Origin: Candidatus Hydrogenedentes bacterium CG07_land_8_20_14_0_80_42_17
GTDB lineage: Bacteria > UBA8481
NCBI GenBank assembly: GCA_002780065.1
Contig: PEWQ01000192.1
Location: forward strand, 1-9,192
Direction of reading: 5' to 3'
Length of the DNA stretch: 9,192 nt
In this document: piece after piece, positions 1 through 9,192 of the stretch
Numbering within the stretch: the first letter of the stretch is position 1
Layout: every line of letters begins with the position of its first letter
Notes under the pieces: model-generated
Told to the model about the DNA's origin: nothing
Database searches by the model: none
What the model saw: only the letters and a program-made list of their open reading frames with translations
Translations under genes and position numbers: made by a program

Positions 1-25
1 AATTCATAATACAATTTTTTTCCGA

Positions 26-3000
26 TTATCTCTTCAGCGATAGCAATTCCTGTAGAACCTGATCAGCAGTCGTTATTGTTCTTGACTGAGCCTGAAAGCC
101 GCGCTGAGTTATTATCATGTCGACGAACTCAACAGAAAGATCTACGTTGGACATTTCCAAAGCTCCTGGAACAATCGTGCCTACGCCGTCAAAACCAGGT
201 CTCTGCGGACTTCCGTACTTTCCCGCGTTTACTGTATCCTTGAACATATTTTGACCGACTGCAACAAGTCCTGCAGGATTGACAAAACCCTGCAGAGCAA
301 TTCGGCCAAGGTTCAAGCTTTTCCCATTATCAAAGAGTCCGACAAGAAATCCTTCGTCATTGAAAGAATAACTCTCGAGTCGGCCGGGAGGCGCTCCGTT
401 CTGCGATGTGACAACTGCATCATTGCCGCGAGCAGTCTGAAATAGATTTGTAAAGTTAGGAGTGATCATAACCGGATCCGCTCCTTCGGGTGGAAGCGGA
501 GCTCCATCACTCTGTTGAGGATCAAAATAAATCCCCTGAAAACCGTTATTTGTTGTTCCATCTGCTGTCGGAGCTTCGTAAGGAATCGTCGATGACGAGT
601 CGTAAGTTCCATCAGCATTGAAAGCTATTATCCTCTGAAACGCCACTCTTTGCTGATCTGCATCGGTTGGATCTATTGCATACATAATCCATCTGTGAGT
701 ATCCAACCGCTCAAATTTTAACGGAACATTCCACGGTCGCCCCACGGAATCATAAGCCTCAACTGCTGTTGAATACAAATAATCTTCCGGCGAATTAAAC
801 GAAACGACCGATGCGTCGCCCGAATCCGCTTGATTATTGTTTCCATTGTTCCCCGTTATCTGCGAGGTATTCGGAGTAAAAGAAAAAGTCTCAACTGTCT
901 TGTCAACCAAAGGATTTACATTCGGATTTTTTGTGAGCCCGTTCGGAATAATGATGTTAACTCTGTCGTCGGAATTGTAATTCAATTCAGCTCGACGCGC
1001 AGGGTAGATAGAACTAATGTCCGGTAAATAATTCAATGAAGTATCAGACGGTCGATTCGGCACACCGGCAGTGAATCCATCGCCTTGAAGCCACAGATTC
1101 AAATTACCTGTCTCGCCGCCGCCATTCGGGATTTCCATGACTCTCCACAAATCATTTCCGCCGCGAACATTTCCTGCTCCGTTTGGACCTGCTCCGTCTG
1201 TCACACCAATACGTTTTTCAAAAAAGTCGAAATCGTGATCAACATTTGCAAATGTATCATTCGCTTCATCAACAGCTTCTCCGCTAAAGAAAGTCCCGAA
1301 AGATAAATCGCCAGTTTGAGGATTCACAGAAAATTGTCGAGCAGAAAGAGATTGTCCCCATGCAACTTCAACAAAAGTTTCTACTGCTCCGCCTGCGGAA
1401 ACATTCGCGAGCTGAATCGTTCCGACTGAGCCGGAAATATAAGGCGGATTCTGTCCACCTGAATCAGGAAGAGCTGCAAATGCAATCTCCGCATTGTCAA
1501 CCGTAGTGCCGACAACAACTGTAGAAGTCTGTTCTTCGCCCCATGATCTGAATGTTTGATAAGAACCTGAAACAGTATCTGCTAATTCAACTGCATCACC
1601 ATTCGAAAAAGTTCCCATAACTAACTGTCCTGTTGTCGGGTCTATTTTGAATTGATTTGCGCCTAAATTCGCATCGAGAACCGAGTTCGCAACTTCAGTA
1701 AAGGATTCGCTAACACTTCTTGAAGTATCTACTAATGTCAAAGTTCCCGAACCTGAAACGTAGAACGCTGAAAGATCGGTAGTGCTTGTCGTCGTTCCTG
1801 TCCATGTAGTTCGATTTCCACCTCCCAATCCACGCGCTCCGAATTCCAGTGTCATAGTATTTGTAGAAGGAATCGAACGAGTATTAGTCGGTCTCATTTC
1901 GTAATCGTAAGTAACTATCGCATTGATTCCATTCGCAAGCGATGACCCTAAAGTGATCACGCCGTTATCAGGATCGAGTTTGAACTCAGTATTTCCCGAA
2001 GTAAAAGCATCTGCATTGTCAATTCGAGTATATTCATTTCCATCAATAAAAAGCCTTAGCGAATCAGAATCAGTTCCATTTGCAGAAGACATTCTGCCAT
2101 CTGCGGCAGGATTTGCGCGAGCCGAATCAATAATATTCGAATGAGCAAGTTGTAACTGAGTTCTGTCCGACGAAATCTTAGAAACAACTTCGTTCGTAAC
2201 AGACTCTACGTACTGAACCGGAGCTCCCAATCCATCTCCAGGAAGGTTTGCATTTCCCGCAGCCGAGGTGCCTGTCTGATACACAGCATCCTGAGTAAAT
2301 CCATTTGGATAAGTTCCACCTGCAAGCGGTGTAGAAGAAAGAGGCGCATTTGGAACTGTGATCGTGACATCATTTACAGTAGGGTCTATCGCATTCGTCG
2401 AACTAGATTGAGAAGTTAGTCTTGAATCTTCCTCAAATTGAATTGAATCACCGTCGCCGTTCGAATCGAGCGTAAAAAAGTCGTAGCCATTAAAAGTTCT
2501 GGTTAGATAATTCAGCGCCCAAAGGTCTCCAGAATCCGGTAACTCGCTTACATCAAGAAAATCGGCAGCCGGATCAGCGGCATTGTCATCCGCTGTATTC
2601 AAATAATTCGCAACAACTTTTCCGTTATCATCTACTTCTAATATTCCGGACATCTCCATACCGTTCATATCAGTAGTCAGTTTTGTATAATCTCCGGTCG
2701 TAGCGTCAATTTGAGACGGGTCATAAACCTCCCATAAATACAGATTCAGACTTGGAGAAACATGTTTGAATCTCATTTCAATTTCACGTGAAGTTCCATT
2801 CTTCTGCCAACTGACTCGGATTGGATCGATTGCAGTGCTCATCCTAACATCAAGGTTTCCTCCCATCTCAACCGTTGAAGTTGCAATCGGAGCCATCTGC
2901 TGAGACATATTTAAAACTACATTCTCTACAGGATTCGAAGAATTGATAACCATCGAATTAGTTTTGGAATCAAGGTATGAATTCCAACCTTGAGCTCGAA

Positions 3001-3403
3001 AACCATTAGATGCCTCTACGAGGCTCCCATCGCGGTCCACCGCAAAACTTCCGTCACGCGTAAAATATTCTCCGATATTTTCTCCATCGCGAAGAACAAA
3101 AAATCCTCCGCCTTGAATTGCAAGGTCAGTCGTCTTATTTGTTATCTCGATCGCGCCCTGAGTCATATCGCGCGAAATAGTTGTTCCCAAAACTCCAAGA
3201 CCAATCTGCTTTGGATTCTGTCCGCCCCTTCCCGATTCCGGCGCAGTCGCAATCTCTATCGTCTGCGACAATACATCGTCGAATCTCACTCTCGATCCTT
3301 TGAATGCTGTTGTGTTAACGTTGGCTATATTGTTAGAAATAACATCCAGCCTAACCTGGTGCGCTTTTAGACCGGTTACACCCGTAAAAAGTGAACGCAG
3401 CAT
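26..3403 (-). CDS. flgE: Giant flagellar hook protein FlgE, second copy (FlgE2)
   Basis: Structural subunit of the flagellar hook, exported by the flagellar type III apparatus and polymerised under the FlgD cap. The 1125-residue product starts with the rod/hook N-terminal helix (residues 4-34, with NNIANVNTTAFKGS), carries the DLAIQGGGFFVLRDG strand of the core at 93-107, a FlaE-like region around 880-960 (YDSVGRPWNVPLKFERLD), a hook core stretch at 1000-1054 and the C-terminal helix at 1080-1123 (MIITQRGFQAQSRTITTADQ). The ends are intact, so the extra length is all in the middle (about 180-870), which is rich in Gly, Asn, Thr and Asp and includes three related repeat units near 448-503, 547-622 and 655-728. 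I see no cysteine. The ATG is preceded by AAGGAG at a 10-base spacing. Its length and FlaE region favour FlgE over FlgG or FlgF. The small operon gene just upstream is its usual neighbour in other genomes. Family assignment is firm; the division of labour with FlgE1 is unknown. Confidence 0.93.
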   Translation of the reverse strand: MLRSLFTGVTGLKAHQVRLDVISNNIANVNTTAFKGSRVRFDDVLSQTIEIATAPESGRGGQNPKQIGLGVLGTTISRDMTQGAIEITNKTTDLAIQGGGFFVLRDGENIGEYFTRDGSFAVDRDGSLVEASNGFRAQGWNSYLDSKTNSMVINSSNPVENVVLNMSQQMAPIATSTVEMGGNLDVRMSTAIDPIRVSWQKNGTSREIEMRFKHVSPSLNLYLWEVYDPSQIDATTGDYTKLTTDMNGMEMSGILEVDDNGKVVANYLNTADDNAADPAADFLDVSELPDSGDLWALNYLTRTFNGYDFFTLDSNGDGDSIQFEEDSRLTSQSSSTNAIDPTVNDVTITVPNAPLSSTPLAGGTYPNGFTQDAVYQTGTSAAGNANLPGDGLGAPVQYVESVTNEVVSKISSDRTQLQLAHSNIIDSARANPAADGRMSSANGTDSDSLRLFIDGNEYTRIDNADAFTSGNTEFKLDPDNGVITLGSSLANGINAIVTYDYEMRPTNTRSIPSTNTMTLEFGARGLGGGNRTTWTGTTTSTTDLSAFYVSGSGTLTLVDTSRSVSESFTEVANSVLDANLGANQFKIDPTTGQLVMGTFSNGDAVELADTVSGSYQTFRSWGEEQTSTVVVGTTVDNAEIAFAALPDSGGQNPPYISGSVGTIQLANVSAGGAVETFVEVAWGQSLSARQFSVNPQTGDLSFGTFFSGEAVDEANDTFANVDHDFDFFEKRIGVTDGAGPNGAGNVRGGNDLWRVMEIPNGGGETGNLNLWLQGDGFTAGVPNRPSDTSLNYLPDISSIYPARRAELNYNSDDRVNIIIPNGLTKNPNVNPLVDKTVETFSFTPNTSQITGNNGNNNQADSGDASVVSFNSPEDYLYSTAVEAYDSVGRPWNVPLKFERLDTHRWIMYAIDPTDADQQRVAFQRIIAFNADGTYDSSSTIPYEAPTADGTTNNGFQGIYFDPQQSDGAPLPPEGADPVMITPNFTNLFQTARGNDAVVTSQNGAPPGRLESYSFNDEGFLVGLFDNGKSLNLGRIALQGFVNPAGLVAVGQNMFKDTVNAGKYGSPQRPGFDGVGTIVPGALEMSNVDLSVEFVDMIITQRGFQAQSRTITTADQVLQELLSLKR

Positions 3404-3465
3404 AATTCCTACTCTCCTTCTGTCACGCGCTTATTCAGTGCGAGCCATCCTTCCCTGGAGACCTC

Positions 3466-3486
3466 GGTCAGCATCCATGCTGGACC
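3466..3486. repeat. Hairpin in the leader of flgE2
   Basis: An inverted repeat: on the minus strand GGTCCAGCAT, a two-base centre, then ATGCTGACC, giving a nearly perfect stem with one bulged C. It lies 63 bases upstream of the flgE2 start in sequence that looks more GC-rich than its surroundings. No T-run follows on either strand, so it is not an intrinsic terminator. It may belong to a dispersed intergenic repeat or act as an mRNA structure; the window has no second copy to test this. Confidence 0.5.
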
Positions 3487-3500
3487 AGTAAATCATAAAT

Positions 3501-3560
3501 CGTTGGGCGCATGCCATGCGCCTCTACACATTTCGCTCGAACACATAGGTTCGCCCCTAC
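3501..3560. repeat. REP-like palindromic repeat of the GTAGGGGCG type
   Basis: On the minus strand this stretch holds two similar units, each opening with GTAGRGGCG. The first is GTAGGGGCGAAC, a short loop, then GTTCG (5-bp core stem, outer stem decayed). The second contains GGCGCATG-G-CATGCGCC at 3522-3506, a perfect 8-bp palindrome around one base. The element starts exactly at the last base of the TAG stop of the upstream gene. From memory, intergenic palindromes that open with GTAGGGGCG are widespread in several uncultivated bacterial groups; I cannot verify that here. No T-run follows the stems, so termination is not indicated, though such structures can protect or separate parts of a message. 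Confidence 0.7.
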
Positions 3561-3949
3561 TAACTAACTACCGCCGAATCAATCTTTGTAAATACTCCTT
3601 CTTTAATCGCACTGCCGGAAATGGCAGTGATAACAGTTTTATTCTTTATCGATACTACAAACGCCTTTTCTCCCAATAGTATAAGAGTGTCCTTACAGCC
3701 TTTATTCTCTGCACGCTCAACTGCGCCTCGGAGTTTCCCCAATTCTTCAGTGGAGAAATTTATATCACGCCGTTGAATTCTTTCCTCTGCGTGAGCAGAG
3801 AATTTAAGACCGGTCGCTTCTTCTCTCAGAACGCGGTCAAATCCGCCCTGCTGAATTTGAGATTTTTCCGGCTTATATTCCGACTCTCTCCGGTCAACTC
3901 TTCCAATCTGTTCAATCGGAAGTCTTGACGGATCTATCTTACTGTTCAT
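3560..3949 (-). CDS. Small flagellar operon protein (TIGR02530/PF12611 type)
   Basis: A 129-residue protein of the conserved flagellar-operon family found between fliK/flgD and flgE in many bacteria; its exact role is not settled, and a part in hook assembly or its regulation is inferred from position. The recognisable core spans about residues 48-115: LKFSAHAEERIQRRDINFS, then a helix with the LRGAVERAENKG motif, then strands ending in AFVVSIKNKTVITAI. The first 45 residues are polar and probably flexible. There is no signal peptide or membrane segment, so it should be cytoplasmic. The ATG overlaps the fliK stop by one base (TAATG) and has only a weak AGG before it, so translation is probably coupled to fliK. 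The stop TAG overlaps the start of the downstream palindromic repeat, so repeat insertion may have set the present C terminus. Confidence 0.85.
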   Translation of the reverse strand: MNSKIDPSRLPIEQIGRVDRRESEYKPEKSQIQQGGFDRVLREEATGLKFSAHAEERIQRRDINFSTEELGKLRGAVERAENKGCKDTLILLGEKAFVVSIKNKTVITAISGSAIKEGVFTKIDSAVVS

Positions 3950-5664
3950 TATGCAATGTACCTGACTGTTGAACCGTCAACAACTGCTCGTGGCTCTTCA
4001 CTCTCAATCTCTTCCTCTTCATCAAGATCTCCACCACCATAAACGCGCCGAGATTCTCTGCCGGATTTTTCTTCCGAGTCATTGTTCTCTGTATTCGCAT
4101 CCGTGAATTCGCCTGCGAGCATCACATTTACATTTTCGACCTCAAGCCCTAATTCAGAAAGATTCTTCTTCAGTTCCTGAATGTTCTCCGTTATCGCGCT
4201 CCGAACCGCGCTGTTTTCCGCAGTAAATTTCACATTAACTTTTCCGTCTTCGACCGTGACTTTCATCTCAACTTTACCAAGAAACTCAGGTTTCAGTCTG
4301 ATCGTCGCCTCGCTCTTCCCTTCTGTAACGAATATCTTCATGTTCTGCACTATCTGTTCGAAGACAGGGTTCTGCTGCGGTTTTTGAGTTGTTGTCTGCT
4401 TCTGAGTTTGAAAAGTCTGGTTGATTCCCTTCTGAGATGAATTCTGATTGTAAGAATTCTGCCAGAAATTCTGAGTTTCTTCCGAACTTCTGCCTGACCG
4501 CGATACCTCGCTTATTCCTTCCGCTAAACCTGAAACAGGCGCTGTCGGAGCTTGAACCTTAGCCTTTGCCTTCACTGCTGTCGACGCTAGAATTTCACTC
4601 TGATCAGTTCTAACATCTCTTTGTTCGAGCTTGACTGCCTCTTGATTTTCAGCAGTTTCTCTCGCTCGATTCTTTCGAAGTTCAACAACTTTCGGAGTCT
4701 CTTCCCTGCGCTCGATATTCTCGCTTCTCTGATTTAAATTCTCCGCAGAAATTTCCTGCCTGATTTCGACCGATTTATTTTCCGACTGATTCTCGATGGG
4801 TTTTGGATTTATCTTCTGTACCAACTTCTGCAGCGCCGACTCGACTTTGGCTTCTATTTGAGGTTCAACTTTTTGTTCCATCTGATTTTCATTCGGCTTA
4901 TCCAAAGCTGTTTCGACAGCCTTGCCGATCTCCTTCAAGAAACGTTTGAAGAATTTCTTCATCGCCTCGCCGTCTTCTTTCGGAACTTCATTCGTCACAT
5001 TTGTCAGATCCTGGTGCCCTGCTAAATCAGATACGATCTTCATTATCTCTGAAACTAAAACTCCGACCGATATCTCATCATCATTAATCAAATCATCAAT
5101 TTTCTTTTTGAGATCATTTAGTTCTTCCGCGCTTAATTTTTTCTGCAATGCCGCAGATAGCTCCATTCTTACCGCTCGAATCTGAATCTTTTCCGCCTCG
5201 ACTTTTTCATTACTTACCGTCTTGTTTTCAGTTTGACCGGCAGACGCGGAAGCATCTTTGGTTTCAACTTTGCTCTTTGTTTCTTCCGAGCCGGACGCAT
5301 TTTCAGAATTAGTTGCAGGAGCCGAATTATTATTTTCAATTGCTTTGCTCTCGGTATCAATTCTTTGAGGCAGAACATTTCTATCAACAGCATCACTTAT
5401 CGGCTTCACATTAGTCGGAGAGGACGATTGGATCGGATTCAAATTTACTTGTTGCGGAGCAGGCGCCTCTGTTTTTGCGCGTGGAGTTTCAATCTCTGTG
5501 AACATATCCAGAAACATCGATTCAAAATCGAGGCTGAAAGCATTCTTTATTGCCTGCGCTCCCAAAAATTTTCCTGCCGCCAGAGAAGCCTGAAGATTTT
5601 TTTCTCCATTCTGAGTCCCCTTCTGCTCTTTTTTAATCCCAACGTTTATCTCTACATGTTGCAT
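3949..5664 (-). CDS. fliK: Flagellar hook-length control protein FliK
   Basis: Secreted molecular ruler that stops hook growth and switches the export gate (through FlhB) from rod/hook to filament substrates. The 571-residue protein has the usual layout. The N-terminal region (about 1-160) is polar and low in complexity. A helical, Lys/Glu-rich middle (about 165-345) follows, then a Gln/Asn-rich linker (400-435). The conserved C-terminal hook-length domain lies at about 436-518 and shows ATIRLKPEFLGKVEMKV, a VNVKFTAENSAVRSAI stretch and a helix ending in LGLEVENVNVMLA. An acidic tail (548-557, mostly Glu) comes after it. It is longer than the Salmonella protein (about 400), in keeping with the large hook proteins beside it. 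The start is firm: AAGGAGG lies 7 bases before the ATG. It sits 42 bases after flgE1 and overlaps the next gene by one base. Only the C-terminal domain is diagnostic; the rest is too variable to assign by sequence. Confidence 0.92.
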   Translation of the reverse strand: MQHVEINVGIKKEQKGTQNGEKNLQASLAAGKFLGAQAIKNAFSLDFESMFLDMFTEIETPRAKTEAPAPQQVNLNPIQSSSPTNVKPISDAVDRNVLPQRIDTESKAIENNNSAPATNSENASGSEETKSKVETKDASASAGQTENKTVSNEKVEAEKIQIRAVRMELSAALQKKLSAEELNDLKKKIDDLINDDEISVGVLVSEIMKIVSDLAGHQDLTNVTNEVPKEDGEAMKKFFKRFLKEIGKAVETALDKPNENQMEQKVEPQIEAKVESALQKLVQKINPKPIENQSENKSVEIRQEISAENLNQRSENIERREETPKVVELRKNRARETAENQEAVKLEQRDVRTDQSEILASTAVKAKAKVQAPTAPVSGLAEGISEVSRSGRSSEETQNFWQNSYNQNSSQKGINQTFQTQKQTTTQKPQQNPVFEQIVQNMKIFVTEGKSEATIRLKPEFLGKVEMKVTVEDGKVNVKFTAENSAVRSAITENIQELKKNLSELGLEVENVNVMLAGEFTDANTENNDSEEKSGRESRRVYGGGDLDEEEEIESEEPRAVVDGSTVRYIA

Positions 5665-5671
5665 TCTAACT

Positions 5672-5678
5672 CCTCCTT
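5672..5678 (-). promoter_or_regulatory. Strong ribosome binding site of fliK
   Basis: AAGGAGG on the minus strand, 7 bases before the fliK ATG at 5664. It is the best match to the anti-Shine-Dalgarno sequence in the window, better than those of both hook genes, and fixes the fliK start. Confidence 0.85.
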
Positions 5679-5706
5679 AATTCTTGTGAATCGTGTGTCG
5701 TGATTC

Positions 5707-8259
5707 TCATCTCTTCATTCCTATCGCTTCCTTAATCATTTCATCAGTCGTAGTGACGATGCGTGAATTGAACTGATACGCTCTCTGATAAATAATCATA
5801 TTTGAAAGTTCATCCGCCATATCCACGTTCGATGTTTCAAGCGCTTTTGGAATAAGCGTTGTGCCGTTGAATTCGCCATCAGAGGTCAATGAATTTGCAA
5901 ATATGAGTTCCCGTGTTCCGCTCGAGTTGGACGGCAAAAATGTAGTTTCACCGCGAGCTATCATACCTTCGGGATTCCGAAATTTTGCCAACGTTGCCCG
6001 CGCAAGTAACTGCTGTTTGCCGTTTGAATAATCGCCAACTATTCGCCCAGAATCATCTATACTCCATTTCAAAAGGTCTCCAGCTTTAAATCCGTTCGAA
6101 TTGAGAATTGCGACGTCTGATTTCCGCGCGCTCTGAGTTATAGAACTGAAATCAGGCGCAATAGTCAAAAGGTTCGCATTCAAAGGCGTCAGCGAAACCG
6201 GATTTACAATTTGAGTGCTCAACGGGTCTAAAGCCGCGTTCGGATCGTAATATCCATTTGCATCAAAAGAGATTATTCCGTCGCCGGTAGTAGAACTCGA
6301 TTTGTAATCAGTCTTTATTTTGAAGCCGGATCCGCTCGTATCTATATCGCGCGAAAACTCGATAGCACCTGTCACAGGATCAGCAACTCTGAAGTAGCGG
6401 CTCGAACCGCCTGTTTCCGGAAATGCCGCAGTAGGCGGTAATTGTGTCCATGAAAGATATCCTCCGCCCTCATCGGTCTCAATATTTATGTCGTAAGTTC
6501 CATCTGAATTCTGAATCAAAGTATTCGGCATTACGAGCATTCCGTCCGAAGTAGTTCCTCCGCCTGTTGCTCCGTCAGTAATCACAGCGGCATCCTGCTC
6601 ATAACGATAGGTCGGTGTTGCCTGCCACATCCATCGGTGATCGCTCAAACGTTCGAATGAAAAAGAGAGCGAATGTTCATTGCCATTCGAATCGAACATA
6701 TTCATAGCTGTTCCCACAATAGTCTCAGATGCTGTGCGCGGAGCCGGAATGGAAAGTCCATTTCCGGGCACAAGATTATTTCTGAAATAAAGCGGCTGAT
6801 TCATTACGCCGAATTCCATATCGACTCGAGTATCAGCCTGATCGTAATTCACCGTGACTGCGCCAGGAGCCCAAAATGTTATCGGAGAAATTATTCCTTT
6901 TTCATAATCAACCGAGTAATCAGTGTTCTCAACAAGAGGTGCTCCATTTCGAGTAGCATTGATGACAAGAGTTCCATTCGAGGCTGGAGGATTGAGAAGA
7001 GTAAAATTAATATTCGAAGAAGGATTCGATATTGAATGAGTTTCTCCTGTGACTTGCACAGTCCCGCCGTTAGTTGTATACGAAATCGAACAGTCTCCGG
7101 TATCCCACGCTGTGAGCGGAGTAATCGTTCCTGTTGCCGGAGTCTCTGTGTAGTCGACTCCGTTAGTAAGAATTTTACCATTCAAAGTAATCACTGTTGA
7201 ATTCACATCTAAAATTCCTGAATCGACATTGAAAACTGCAGGCGTCGCAAGAGTCAGTGCTCCGCCTTCCGGTCTTTGAATTGCCTCTCCTAGTATTCCT
7301 GTCAGCGGCGCAGTGCCGACTGTAAAGATAGGATTGCCGTTTCCATTTATGCGAGCCCAAGGCGCTAGAGCGGCAATATCTGCCGTTGTGAGATAACTGT
7401 CCGCATCAGAATTTTGGTAGACGCCTGTGACAAAACCGTCTTTGTCGAGTTGTACGATGCCCGTGATATCTCCGCCCGCAGTTCCATCAACTAAAGTAGA
7501 ATAGCTCCCATCAGCATTCTGCGCTGGATTCTGAGCCTTGAAGAAAAAATATGAATCTCCATTCGAGTCATCGAATTTTGCCTTCTGAAATTCAAGTCTA
7601 AAACTTCTGTCAACTCCAAGAGTGCTCTGACTAAATATCTGCGGGTCTATTGCAATCGGACTTACTGCATCGAGGTTGTCACCGAATGTCGCGTAAGTCG
7701 TAGCAAACGGTATAAGCCTGGATGCCGGATCGATTGTAATATCGTCAAGAGCCGCCTCAGTAGGCAATACGTATTCGCCGGTCAAAGGATCGATCGTGGA
7801 ATTAACTCCCTGCAGAGTATATCCTTCGGATGTCACCAAATTGATCGGACCTTGATACGTACTATCAGTATCTTCATTCGCGCTGATTTGAAAATGTCCG
7901 TTGCGAGTGTAGTAAGTTGTGTTAGGAAGATTGTCAGGCGCTCGGACAACAAAAAATCCAGGACCCATAATTGAAAGATCGAGATCTCTGCCTGTCAGCT
8001 CCGGCGTGCCCTGATTGAAGTTCTTCTGAATTGCGGCTAGCCCCACTCCCAAGCCCTTCTGCACAGGATTGACACTGGATGCGGCAGAATCCGCAGGAGC
8101 TCCGCCAAGCCTCATAGTTATCGAAAATAGATCTTCAAAATGAATTTTTGAGCCTTTGAATGCAGTCGTATTAACGTTTGAAACGTTATTCGCAACAACA
8201 TCCAGCGCCTGCTGATGCTGATAGAGACCTGTTGCTCCTATCCAGAAGCTTGACCTCAT
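5707..8259 (-). CDS. flgE: Flagellar hook protein FlgE, first copy (FlgE1)
   Basis: Hook-type axial protein of 850 residues, a paralog of FlgE2. The N-terminal rod/hook helix is at about 6-36 (ANNVSNVNTTAFKGS), the core strand DLSIMGPGFFVVR at 94-106, a FlaE-like region from about 514 (MFDSNGNEHSLSFSFERLSD), the hook core at 720-747 and the C-terminal helix at 805-848 (MIIYQRAYQFNSRIVTTTDE). The insert between core parts carries two aligned repeats of about 36 residues at roughly 359-394 and 438-473, both with NG, a DY pair, G-I, P-x-T-x-W and a final Y. One cysteine (about residue 390) lies in the first repeat. The frame is open for 27 more codons to a GTG at 8340, but that extension (rich in Trp, Arg and Glu) is unlike any hook protein, while the ATG at 8259 has GGAG 7 bases before it and gives the family-typical start. 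It follows flgD and precedes fliK. It could be the main hook subunit, a minor or junction-like subunit, or an alternative hook. Confidence 0.9.
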   Translation of the reverse strand: MRSSFWIGATGLYQHQQALDVVANNVSNVNTTAFKGSKIHFEDLFSITMRLGGAPADSAASSVNPVQKGLGVGLAAIQKNFNQGTPELTGRDLDLSIMGPGFFVVRAPDNLPNTTYYTRNGHFQISANEDTDSTYQGPINLVTSEGYTLQGVNSTIDPLTGEYVLPTEAALDDITIDPASRLIPFATTYATFGDNLDAVSPIAIDPQIFSQSTLGVDRSFRLEFQKAKFDDSNGDSYFFFKAQNPAQNADGSYSTLVDGTAGGDITGIVQLDKDGFVTGVYQNSDADSYLTTADIAALAPWARINGNGNPIFTVGTAPLTGILGEAIQRPEGGALTLATPAVFNVDSGILDVNSTVITLNGKILTNGVDYTETPATGTITPLTAWDTGDCSISYTTNGGTVQVTGETHSISNPSSNINFTLLNPPASNGTLVINATRNGAPLVENTDYSVDYEKGIISPITFWAPGAVTVNYDQADTRVDMEFGVMNQPLYFRNNLVPGNGLSIPAPRTASETIVGTAMNMFDSNGNEHSLSFSFERLSDHRWMWQATPTYRYEQDAAVITDGATGGGTTSDGMLVMPNTLIQNSDGTYDINIETDEGGGYLSWTQLPPTAAFPETGGSSRYFRVADPVTGAIEFSRDIDTSGSGFKIKTDYKSSSTTGDGIISFDANGYYDPNAALDPLSTQIVNPVSLTPLNANLLTIAPDFSSITQSARKSDVAILNSNGFKAGDLLKWSIDDSGRIVGDYSNGKQQLLARATLAKFRNPEGMIARGETTFLPSNSSGTRELIFANSLTSDGEFNGTTLIPKALETSNVDMADELSNMIIYQRAYQFNSRIVTTTDEMIKEAIGMKR

Positions 8260-8435
8260 CTTTTCACTCCAAGCTATGCGGTCCCACTCTACTTCCGTCC
8301 ACCGCAATATTTCGGCCTGCCTCGATAAGTCAGCAGGCACACGGTCTCTTCAGATGAAGTCCGACCGTTCGAGTCAAAGACTCTTTCCTCTATTTTAGCC
8401 TGGTATTATTCAATCAAATAAAAAAATTAATTATT
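8260..8435 (-). promoter_or_regulatory. Structured leader of flgE1 with four inverted repeats
   Basis: The 176 bases between flgD and flgE1 hold no gene. Reading with the genes, an AT-rich start with a run of seven T (8426-8420) is followed by a possible -10 box TAAAAT (8397-8392), without a good -35. Four inverted repeats follow: GAGTC-ttt-GACTC (8383-8371); CGGTC with GACCG around an inner CTTCA/TGAAG (8367-8342); GCCTGC with GCAGGC around 12 bases (8338-8315); and TGCGGT with ACCGCA around 18 bases (8306-8277). The last ends only a few bases before the ribosome binding site GGAG (8270-8267). This could be a regulatory leader, a processed message junction or a cluster of decayed intergenic repeats. 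It does not match a riboswitch class I can name. Confidence 0.45.
8267..8270 (-). promoter_or_regulatory. Ribosome binding site that sets the flgE1 start
   Basis: GGAG on the minus strand, 7 bases before the ATG at 8259. It supports this start over the upstream in-frame GTG at 8340, which would add 27 residues foreign to the family. Confidence 0.75.
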
Positions 8436-8873
8436 TCAGTTTGGAACTCCAGCCAGCGAGATATCAGATATCTGGCTTAATTTTACAACTGAAATCTTTC
8501 CGTCTGTTTTCATTAAAGTTAATTCAGGATCGTCTCCGTTCAATTTAATTGATGTGACAATTCCTTCAAGAGTCTCGCCTGTATCAGTGTCAACCGCTTT
8601 TGCAGTTCCGCCAAGCATCGACAAAGCTTCATTATTCTGAGAGCGCTGAGCAACCTTTGAAAACTCATCGACCAAATTTGTAGTCTGTTCGAGCGAAGAG
8701 AACTGCGCCATCTGAGCTATAAAATCTTTATCCTTCAGAGGATCCATCGCGTCCTGATACTTCATTTCGGTCAACAGAAGCTTCAGGAATTCATCTTTGC
8801 CCAATTGCTTTGTTGTAGCATTAGTAATTGCATTTCCAGCATCACTACTTCCTAAAGATGAAACAATTGACAT
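8436..8873 (-). CDS. flgD: Flagellar hook cap / hook assembly scaffold FlgD (short form)
   Basis: FlgD forms the temporary cap at the tip of the growing hook and is needed for FlgE subunits to polymerise; it is exported by the flagellar type III apparatus and later lost. The conserved N-terminal domain is clear at about residues 23-71: LGKDEFLKLLLTEMKYQDAM, then DP, then FIAQMAQFSSLEQTTNL. The FLKLL stretch (29-33 with the preceding residues) fits the hydrophobic F-x-x-x-hydrophobic gate-recognition pattern described for rod/hook substrates. The C-terminal part (about 84-141: MLGGTAKAVD and following strands) looks like a single small beta domain. At 145 residues it is much shorter than the Salmonella protein (about 230) and probably lacks the Ig-like insert, as in short FlgD of Bacillus and relatives. 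The ATG has GGAGG 4 bases before it. It is the first gene of the block, about 25 bases after the predicted transcription start. Confidence 0.95.
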   Translation of the reverse strand: MSIVSSLGSSDAGNAITNATTKQLGKDEFLKLLLTEMKYQDAMDPLKDKDFIAQMAQFSSLEQTTNLVDEFSKVAQRSQNNEALSMLGGTAKAVDTDTGETLEGIVTSIKLNGDDPELTLMKTDGKISVVKLSQISDISLAGVPN

Positions 8874-8904
8874 AATTCCTCCAAAAAATAATCTTCAAAA
8901 GTTC

Positions 8905-8931
8905 TCATCGGCAGAAAAGTAAAATTACTTA
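8905..8931 (-). promoter_or_regulatory. Candidate sigma-28 (FliA-type) promoter of the hook operon
   Basis: On the minus strand TAAG (8931-8928), exactly 15 bases, then GCCGATGA (8912-8905). The sigma-28 consensus is TAAA, 15 bases, GCCGATAA, so the -10 box matches 7 of 8, the core of the -35 box 3 of 4, and the spacing is exact. Transcription would start near 8898 and leave a leader of about 25 bases that contains the flgD ribosome binding site. It implies that flgD and the genes after it are made under the flagellar sigma factor. Confidence 0.7.
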
Positions 8932-8967
8932 ACGAAATAATCTGGAGACTGGAAATTTCATTTCATC

Positions 8968-8997
8968 GGTAGCCTCAGGCTTCATCCTGCGGCTACC
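8968..8997. repeat. GGTAGCC hairpin upstream of flgD
   Basis: A clean inverted repeat: GGTAGCC (8968-8974) pairs with GGCTACC (8991-8997), then after a single mismatch CAGG (8976-8979) pairs with CCTG (8986-8989) around a six-base loop. It lies just upstream of the sigma-28 candidate. On the plus strand a weakly T-rich stretch follows, on the minus strand none does. It could be a terminator of upstream read-through only if transcribed on the plus strand, where no gene ends; a dispersed palindromic repeat is more likely. Confidence 0.65.
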
Positions 8998-9125
8998 TTC
9001 ATTTTGATATTATTATCTTACTCATTCAATACTATATTCTAAAGTTTTCAAAAAATAAATTTTACCATTGAGAGTCCACTATGAGGTTGTAGCTTCATAT
9101 AGAAATGTTATTGCACCTTATTTGC

Positions 9126-9151
9126 ATGTGCGCACGCCCTCGTGTGTACAT
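9126..9151. repeat. 11-bp hairpin with G-U pairs near the right edge
   Basis: ATGTGCGCACG (9126-9136) and CGTGTGTACAT (9141-9151) face each other around the loop CCCT. The two unmatched positions are both G opposite T on the plus strand, so a plus-strand RNA would pair over all 11 positions, while minus-strand RNA would have two A-C mismatches. No T-run follows. Function unknown. Confidence 0.5.
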
Positions 9152-9192
9152 CTTCATAGATTACAGTAGTTGCAATTCCCTTTCATTCGGGA

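Follow-up and report, generated by a model that had tools for sequence, protein, structure and literature searches.

The hook gene cluster analysed here encodes two complete FlgE proteins of 850 and 1125 aa, and both are, as judged from their sequences, genuine FlgE paralogues. The 850-aa gene appears, with moderate confidence, to be an ancient paralogue common to two phyla, and we tentatively favour, at a little under an even chance, the explanation that the two proteins act in one flagellum, in which the 1125-aa protein would be the main hook subunit and the 850-aa protein a minor, co-exported axial subunit. Paired hook genes are already known elsewhere, and the present pair is an independent and old variant, distinguished by its unusual gene order.

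Gene order and family assignment

The window, i.e., the whole stretch of DNA that was analysed, covers bases 1 to 9192 of a contig of 12.8 kb from a 2.39-Mb genome assembly of 207 contigs. On its minus strand, the genes follow the order flgD, 850-aa FlgE, fliK, TIGR02530 gene, and 1125-aa FlgE (Table 1). The two complete hook-type genes that the sequence-only reading had placed around fliK and the small operon gene are both present as intact open reading frames, and their description was accurate in each particular that was checked. The longest frame of the 850-aa gene begins with a GTG at position 8340; the ATG at 8259 has the ribosome-binding sequence GGAGTGAAAAGATG and agrees with the family start, and the latter codon was therefore taken as the start of the gene. 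The description of both products as oversized holds relative to Salmonella FlgE (403 aa) but not beyond this comparison, as surveyed FlgE frames commonly have 400 to 1150 aa. Outside the window, cas1 and cas6 (L014:2518-4611, contig C102) are separated from flgD by a gap of Ns, so that either the flagellar cluster ends with flgD or the scaffold join is uncertain.

Table 1. Genes and leader regions of the hook cluster in the window
Feature	Position	Strand	Basis
flgE, 1125 aa, probable main hook protein	26-3403	-	Pfam/NCBIfam matches; position after TIGR02530; syntenic orthologue in J006; FlgE side of tree
Leader of 1125-aa flgE with AGCA-NGGA-TGCT hairpin of CsrA-site type	3404-3559	-	Kept in J006
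TIGR02530 small flagellar operon gene, 129 aa	3560-3949	-	106.4 bits, cut-off 83.2
fliK, hook-length control, 571 aa	3949-5664	-	PF02120, 74 bits
Second flgE, 850 aa, ancient hook-family paralogue	5707-8259	-	Pfam; syntenic orthologue in J006; clade with second FlgE of G030 and G396
Leader between flgD and 850-aa flgE, conserved hairpin 8342-8367	8260-8435	-	Alignment and folds; one match each in the window's genome and J006
flgD, hook cap, 145 aa	8436-8873	-	PF03963, 70 bits; sole flgD found in genome

The N-terminal rod/hook motif (Flg_bb_rod), D1, FlgE_D2, and Flg_bbr_C all score above the Pfam cut-offs in both large proteins, and the intact N- and C-terminal regions noted from the sequence alone were thus borne out by the four Pfam domains of the family. 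Both proteins also exceed the cut-off of the FlgE/F/G subfamily model TIGR03506 (237 and 226 bits versus 70). The best NCBIfam FlgE equivalog, NF004241, gives 353 and 243 bits, which is under its cut-off of 469 (a curation threshold, not a biological feature) because of the large diverged inserts; other oversized hooks, e.g., the 1051-aa hook of genome G030, likewise stay under the NCBIfam FlgE cut-offs. The best solved-structure match of the 1125-aa protein is a FlgE chain, 5jxl, the C. jejuni hook protein. In an FlgG-rooted tree of the conserved ends, FlgG was split from the FlgE side with a support of 100/98, and both window proteins were located on the FlgE side; the FlgE/FlgF/FlgG phylogeny suggested earlier as a check accordingly found neither copy within FlgG or FlgF. 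A rod protein of the FlgG/FlgF type was ruled out on the basis of the D2 domain in both proteins, their position in the tree, and the separate FlgF and FlgG genes on contig C53. Away from the flagellar clusters, contig C92 encodes an orphan 233-aa FlgF/FlgG-like protein (L012:9278-9979, minus strand; J006 orthologue L058:5952-6761) that clusters with a 393-aa protein of G065, separate from FlgG and FlgF.

The two paralogues are 34% identical across the N-terminal approximately 300 residues and 28% across the C-terminal part, and their middles differ. The shared N-terminal core NVNTTAFKGS, pointed out in the sequence-only reading, occupies residues 28-37 in both. Comparison with the N-terminal FxxxPhi and C-terminal export signals described for early substrates (PMC10936197) located the F-x-x-x-hydrophobic gate-recognition pattern at residue 41 of both proteins (FDDVL, FEDLF), and the C-terminal signal (I, R, Y/F) is retained in both as well. 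The variable middle of the 850-aa FlgE contains two internal repeats of approximately 60 aa (residues 345-409 and 425-481), which are also present in J006. A repeat domain common to both middles was rejected, as the 850-aa repeat profile matched the 1125-aa protein with an E of only about 1. AlphaFold2 models computed with the J006 orthologues had mean pLDDT values of 28 and 30 for the two proteins.

One FlhA and one FlgD match were found per genome, both in the genome containing the window (completeness of 87%) and in that of J006 (94%), and both flgE genes therefore appear to share a single export system and a single hook cap. A second flagellar system was rejected, as a single FlhA and no second export gene set were found in the window's genome at this completeness of 87%. 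A second FliK-C protein (L137:5662-7124, contig C103; matching FliK-C protein on J006 contig C116) was considered as a second hook ruler, but its neighbour in the window's genome is an FlhB C-terminal protein, and both follow ribosomal-type genes. This set is known elsewhere as ylqG-ylqH, and the FliK-C protein was therefore not assigned to the second hook. Next to this single flagellar system, Flagellin_N has seven matches on seven contigs (one of which is FlgL) and nine matches in J006.

Conservation and descent of the 850-aa protein

The Ca. Hydrogenedentota isolate J006 (RFFU01), the only other genome of the phylum that was compared, has the cluster flgD - flgE (847 aa, counted from the homologous start) - fliK - TIGR02530 - flgE (1133 aa) on a single 83-kb contig, and both flgE genes are intact. 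The proposed look at gene order in relatives thus recovered the same order and both copies in this sole comparison within the phylum. An old rather than a recent duplication, as surmised from the sequence alone, is corroborated by the identities of the orthologues (56% for the 850-type and 71% for the 1125-type) versus about 31% between the window paralogues. Within the conserved core, the identity between the two genomes is 80-85% for the 1125-type, 81% for FlgG, and 62% for the 850-type, and in a second phylum it is 85-86% for the main hook type versus 52-64% for the 850-type; on these sequence comparisons, the polymer core of the 850-type seems to have about double the evolutionary rate of the 1125-type core.

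The second phylum is represented by G030, whose second FlgE (820 aa) groups with the 850-type in trees. An 850-type orthologue was found in all three genomes of this phylum (G030, G396, and G397), with scores of 656 bits for G396 and of 400 and 228 bits for two contig-end pieces of G397, neither of these two genomes having contributed to the search model. Here the gene is located outside the flagellar operon, whose genes include fliK, flgD, and a single large flgE. Among 386 scanned genomes, no further 850-type protein was recovered at that score level, the other matches above threshold being main hooks with at most 184 bits, and the 850-type was thus found in five genomes in total. In the tree including G396, the 850-type forms a clade with the second FlgE of G030 and G396 (support of 98/98), the 1125-type joins the main hooks of G030, G396, and G019 (92/80), and the two clades are sisters (90/81). 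This topology matches, with moderate confidence, the expectation for one duplication that would have preceded the divergence of these phyla; a duplication confined to the window's phylum was not rejected by the AU test (p 0.25). The earlier designation of the 850-aa gene as the added paralogue is supported to the extent that it belongs to the faster branch, together with the second hook gene that stands alone in the other phylum.

Paired hook genes in other bacteria

Campylobacter jejuni likewise has two FlgE genes, FlgE (Cj0043) and FlgE2 (Cj1729c), and it is the large protein (865 aa) that builds the hook. Hooks have been described as consisting of about 120 copies of a single protein, and the purified C. 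jejuni hook contains FlgE2 only (PMC5069557). The window pair differs from this one, as the 850-aa protein reaches 97.5 bits against NF004495/PRK05841, the model of the C. jejuni-type second FlgE (cut-off 857), and does not group in the tree with the second FlgE of the Campylobacterota-like genome G042, for which NF004495 is the best-fitting model (746 bits). Rhizobium leguminosarum also encodes two FlgE proteins, of which FlgE1 is needed for the colonisation of all five plants and FlgE2 only for that of Lathyrus (PMC11103875); unlike in the window, its second gene has a plasmid locus tag (pRL120064) and does not belong to the same cluster.

Across 389 surveyed genomes of many phyla, FlgE_D2 was matched in 151 and twice or more in 21, a PF07559-based count that is too low for genomes such as G030 and G042, whose second FlgE it misses, and too high where one protein was matched twice. 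Tandem flgE pairs behind fliK-flgD are present in at least four surveyed genomes (G093, G333, G217, and G243), and the large copy of G093 exceeds the cut-off of TIGR02489, the model of Campylobacter-type hooks. As in the window, both flgE genes belong to the hook operon, but these pairs are directly adjacent, whereas the window pair is separated by fliK and TIGR02530, and they represent other FlgE branches in the tree. With operons of the order fliK-flgD-TIGR02530-flgE, e.g., that of G271 (FliK-position gene, flgD, TIGR02530, flgE), the window shares the position of TIGR02530 directly before the main flgE, and the sequence-only statement that the small operon gene still precedes its usual partner, the 1125-aa flgE, is therefore correct. 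The window departs from this order in that flgD is located upstream of fliK and an extra flgE is present.

Possible roles of the second FlgE

An assembly artefact or a chimera of two flagellar systems could be suspected from the 207-contig assembly and the N gap just past the window end, but this explanation is practically negligible, already refuted by the independent J006 assembly with the same five-gene order on its 83-kb contig; the single FlhA per genome also speaks against it. It is improbable that the cell switches between two hook types according to conditions, with a separate leader tuning each gene, although a long leader containing a conserved hairpin precedes each of the two flgE genes. 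In front of the 850-aa flgE, the hairpin CGGTCGGACTTC-ATCT-GAAGAGACCG occurs once each in the window's genome and in J006, and a second hairpin comes after it that folds in both genomes although its stem sequence is not the same; the fold z-scores of this leader are modest (-1.7 in both genomes), an Rfam search of the window and the J006 cluster gave no match up to an E of 1, and the region is possibly an undescribed leader element. The leader of the 1125-aa flgE contains a hairpin with GGA in the loop, CAGCA-TGGA-TGCTG (AGCA-CGGA-TGCT in J006), as a candidate CsrA-type site, and a csrA-like gene comes directly after fliW in the window's genome (L011:10783-11031). The presence of CsrA and FliW would suit hook switching, as would the several dispersed flagellins, which suggest a variable appendage. 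Against it stand the location of both flgE genes on the same cluster and strand, the single flgD and single FliK of the operon, the lack of any visible invertible element, and the sigma-70 promoter and terminator scans, in which candidate sites did not rise above chance. The best studied precedent, C. jejuni, points away from hook switching and from a mixed-subunit hook alike.

In the preferred explanation, most of the hook would be built from the 1125-aa protein. The 850-aa protein would use the secretion gate, FlgD cap, and FliK ruler that also serve the main hook protein and would be incorporated as a minor axial part, either as a short rod-hook junction segment or at a low level along the hook. 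The bulk of the hook is assigned to the 1125-type and an accessory role to the 850-type because the former combines the usual flgE place with an FlgG-like conservation of its core, in contrast to the faster core of the latter. This rate difference is also compatible with an 850-aa protein that does not enter a common polymer with the main hook protein and is counted against a two-subunit flagellum, together with the AU test and the absence of the second FlgE from the purified C. jejuni hook (PMC5069557). An 850-aa protein that is expressed but acts outside the hook, in another role such as surface attachment or as a secreted factor, or that is a near-dispensable copy, is accordingly a serious but less probable alternative. 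Cj0043 and R. leguminosarum FlgE2 appear to be such cases, given the FlgE2-only hook of C. jejuni (PMC5069557) and the restriction of the rhizobial FlgE2 to Lathyrus (PMC11103875), and the gene lies outside the flagellar operon in the second phylum; an intact core kept in two of two genomes of the window's phylum and present in three of three of the other, the location between flgD and fliK in the former, and the retention of both export motifs speak against a non-hook protein. It is rather doubtful that the 850-aa proteins represent a distinct ancient hook-segment protein of two candidate phyla, which would make the hook a two-zone polymer with mechanically different parts.

A second FlgE that is kept across two phyla alongside one export system and one cap is well suited to the question of whether composite hooks exist, and the same pair bears on the role of the unused-looking second FlgE of Campylobacter. 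If both proteins are in the hook, FliK length control and hook bending would need to be rethought for two subunits; if the 850-aa protein is not, a non-hook role for FlgE paralogues would be indicated.
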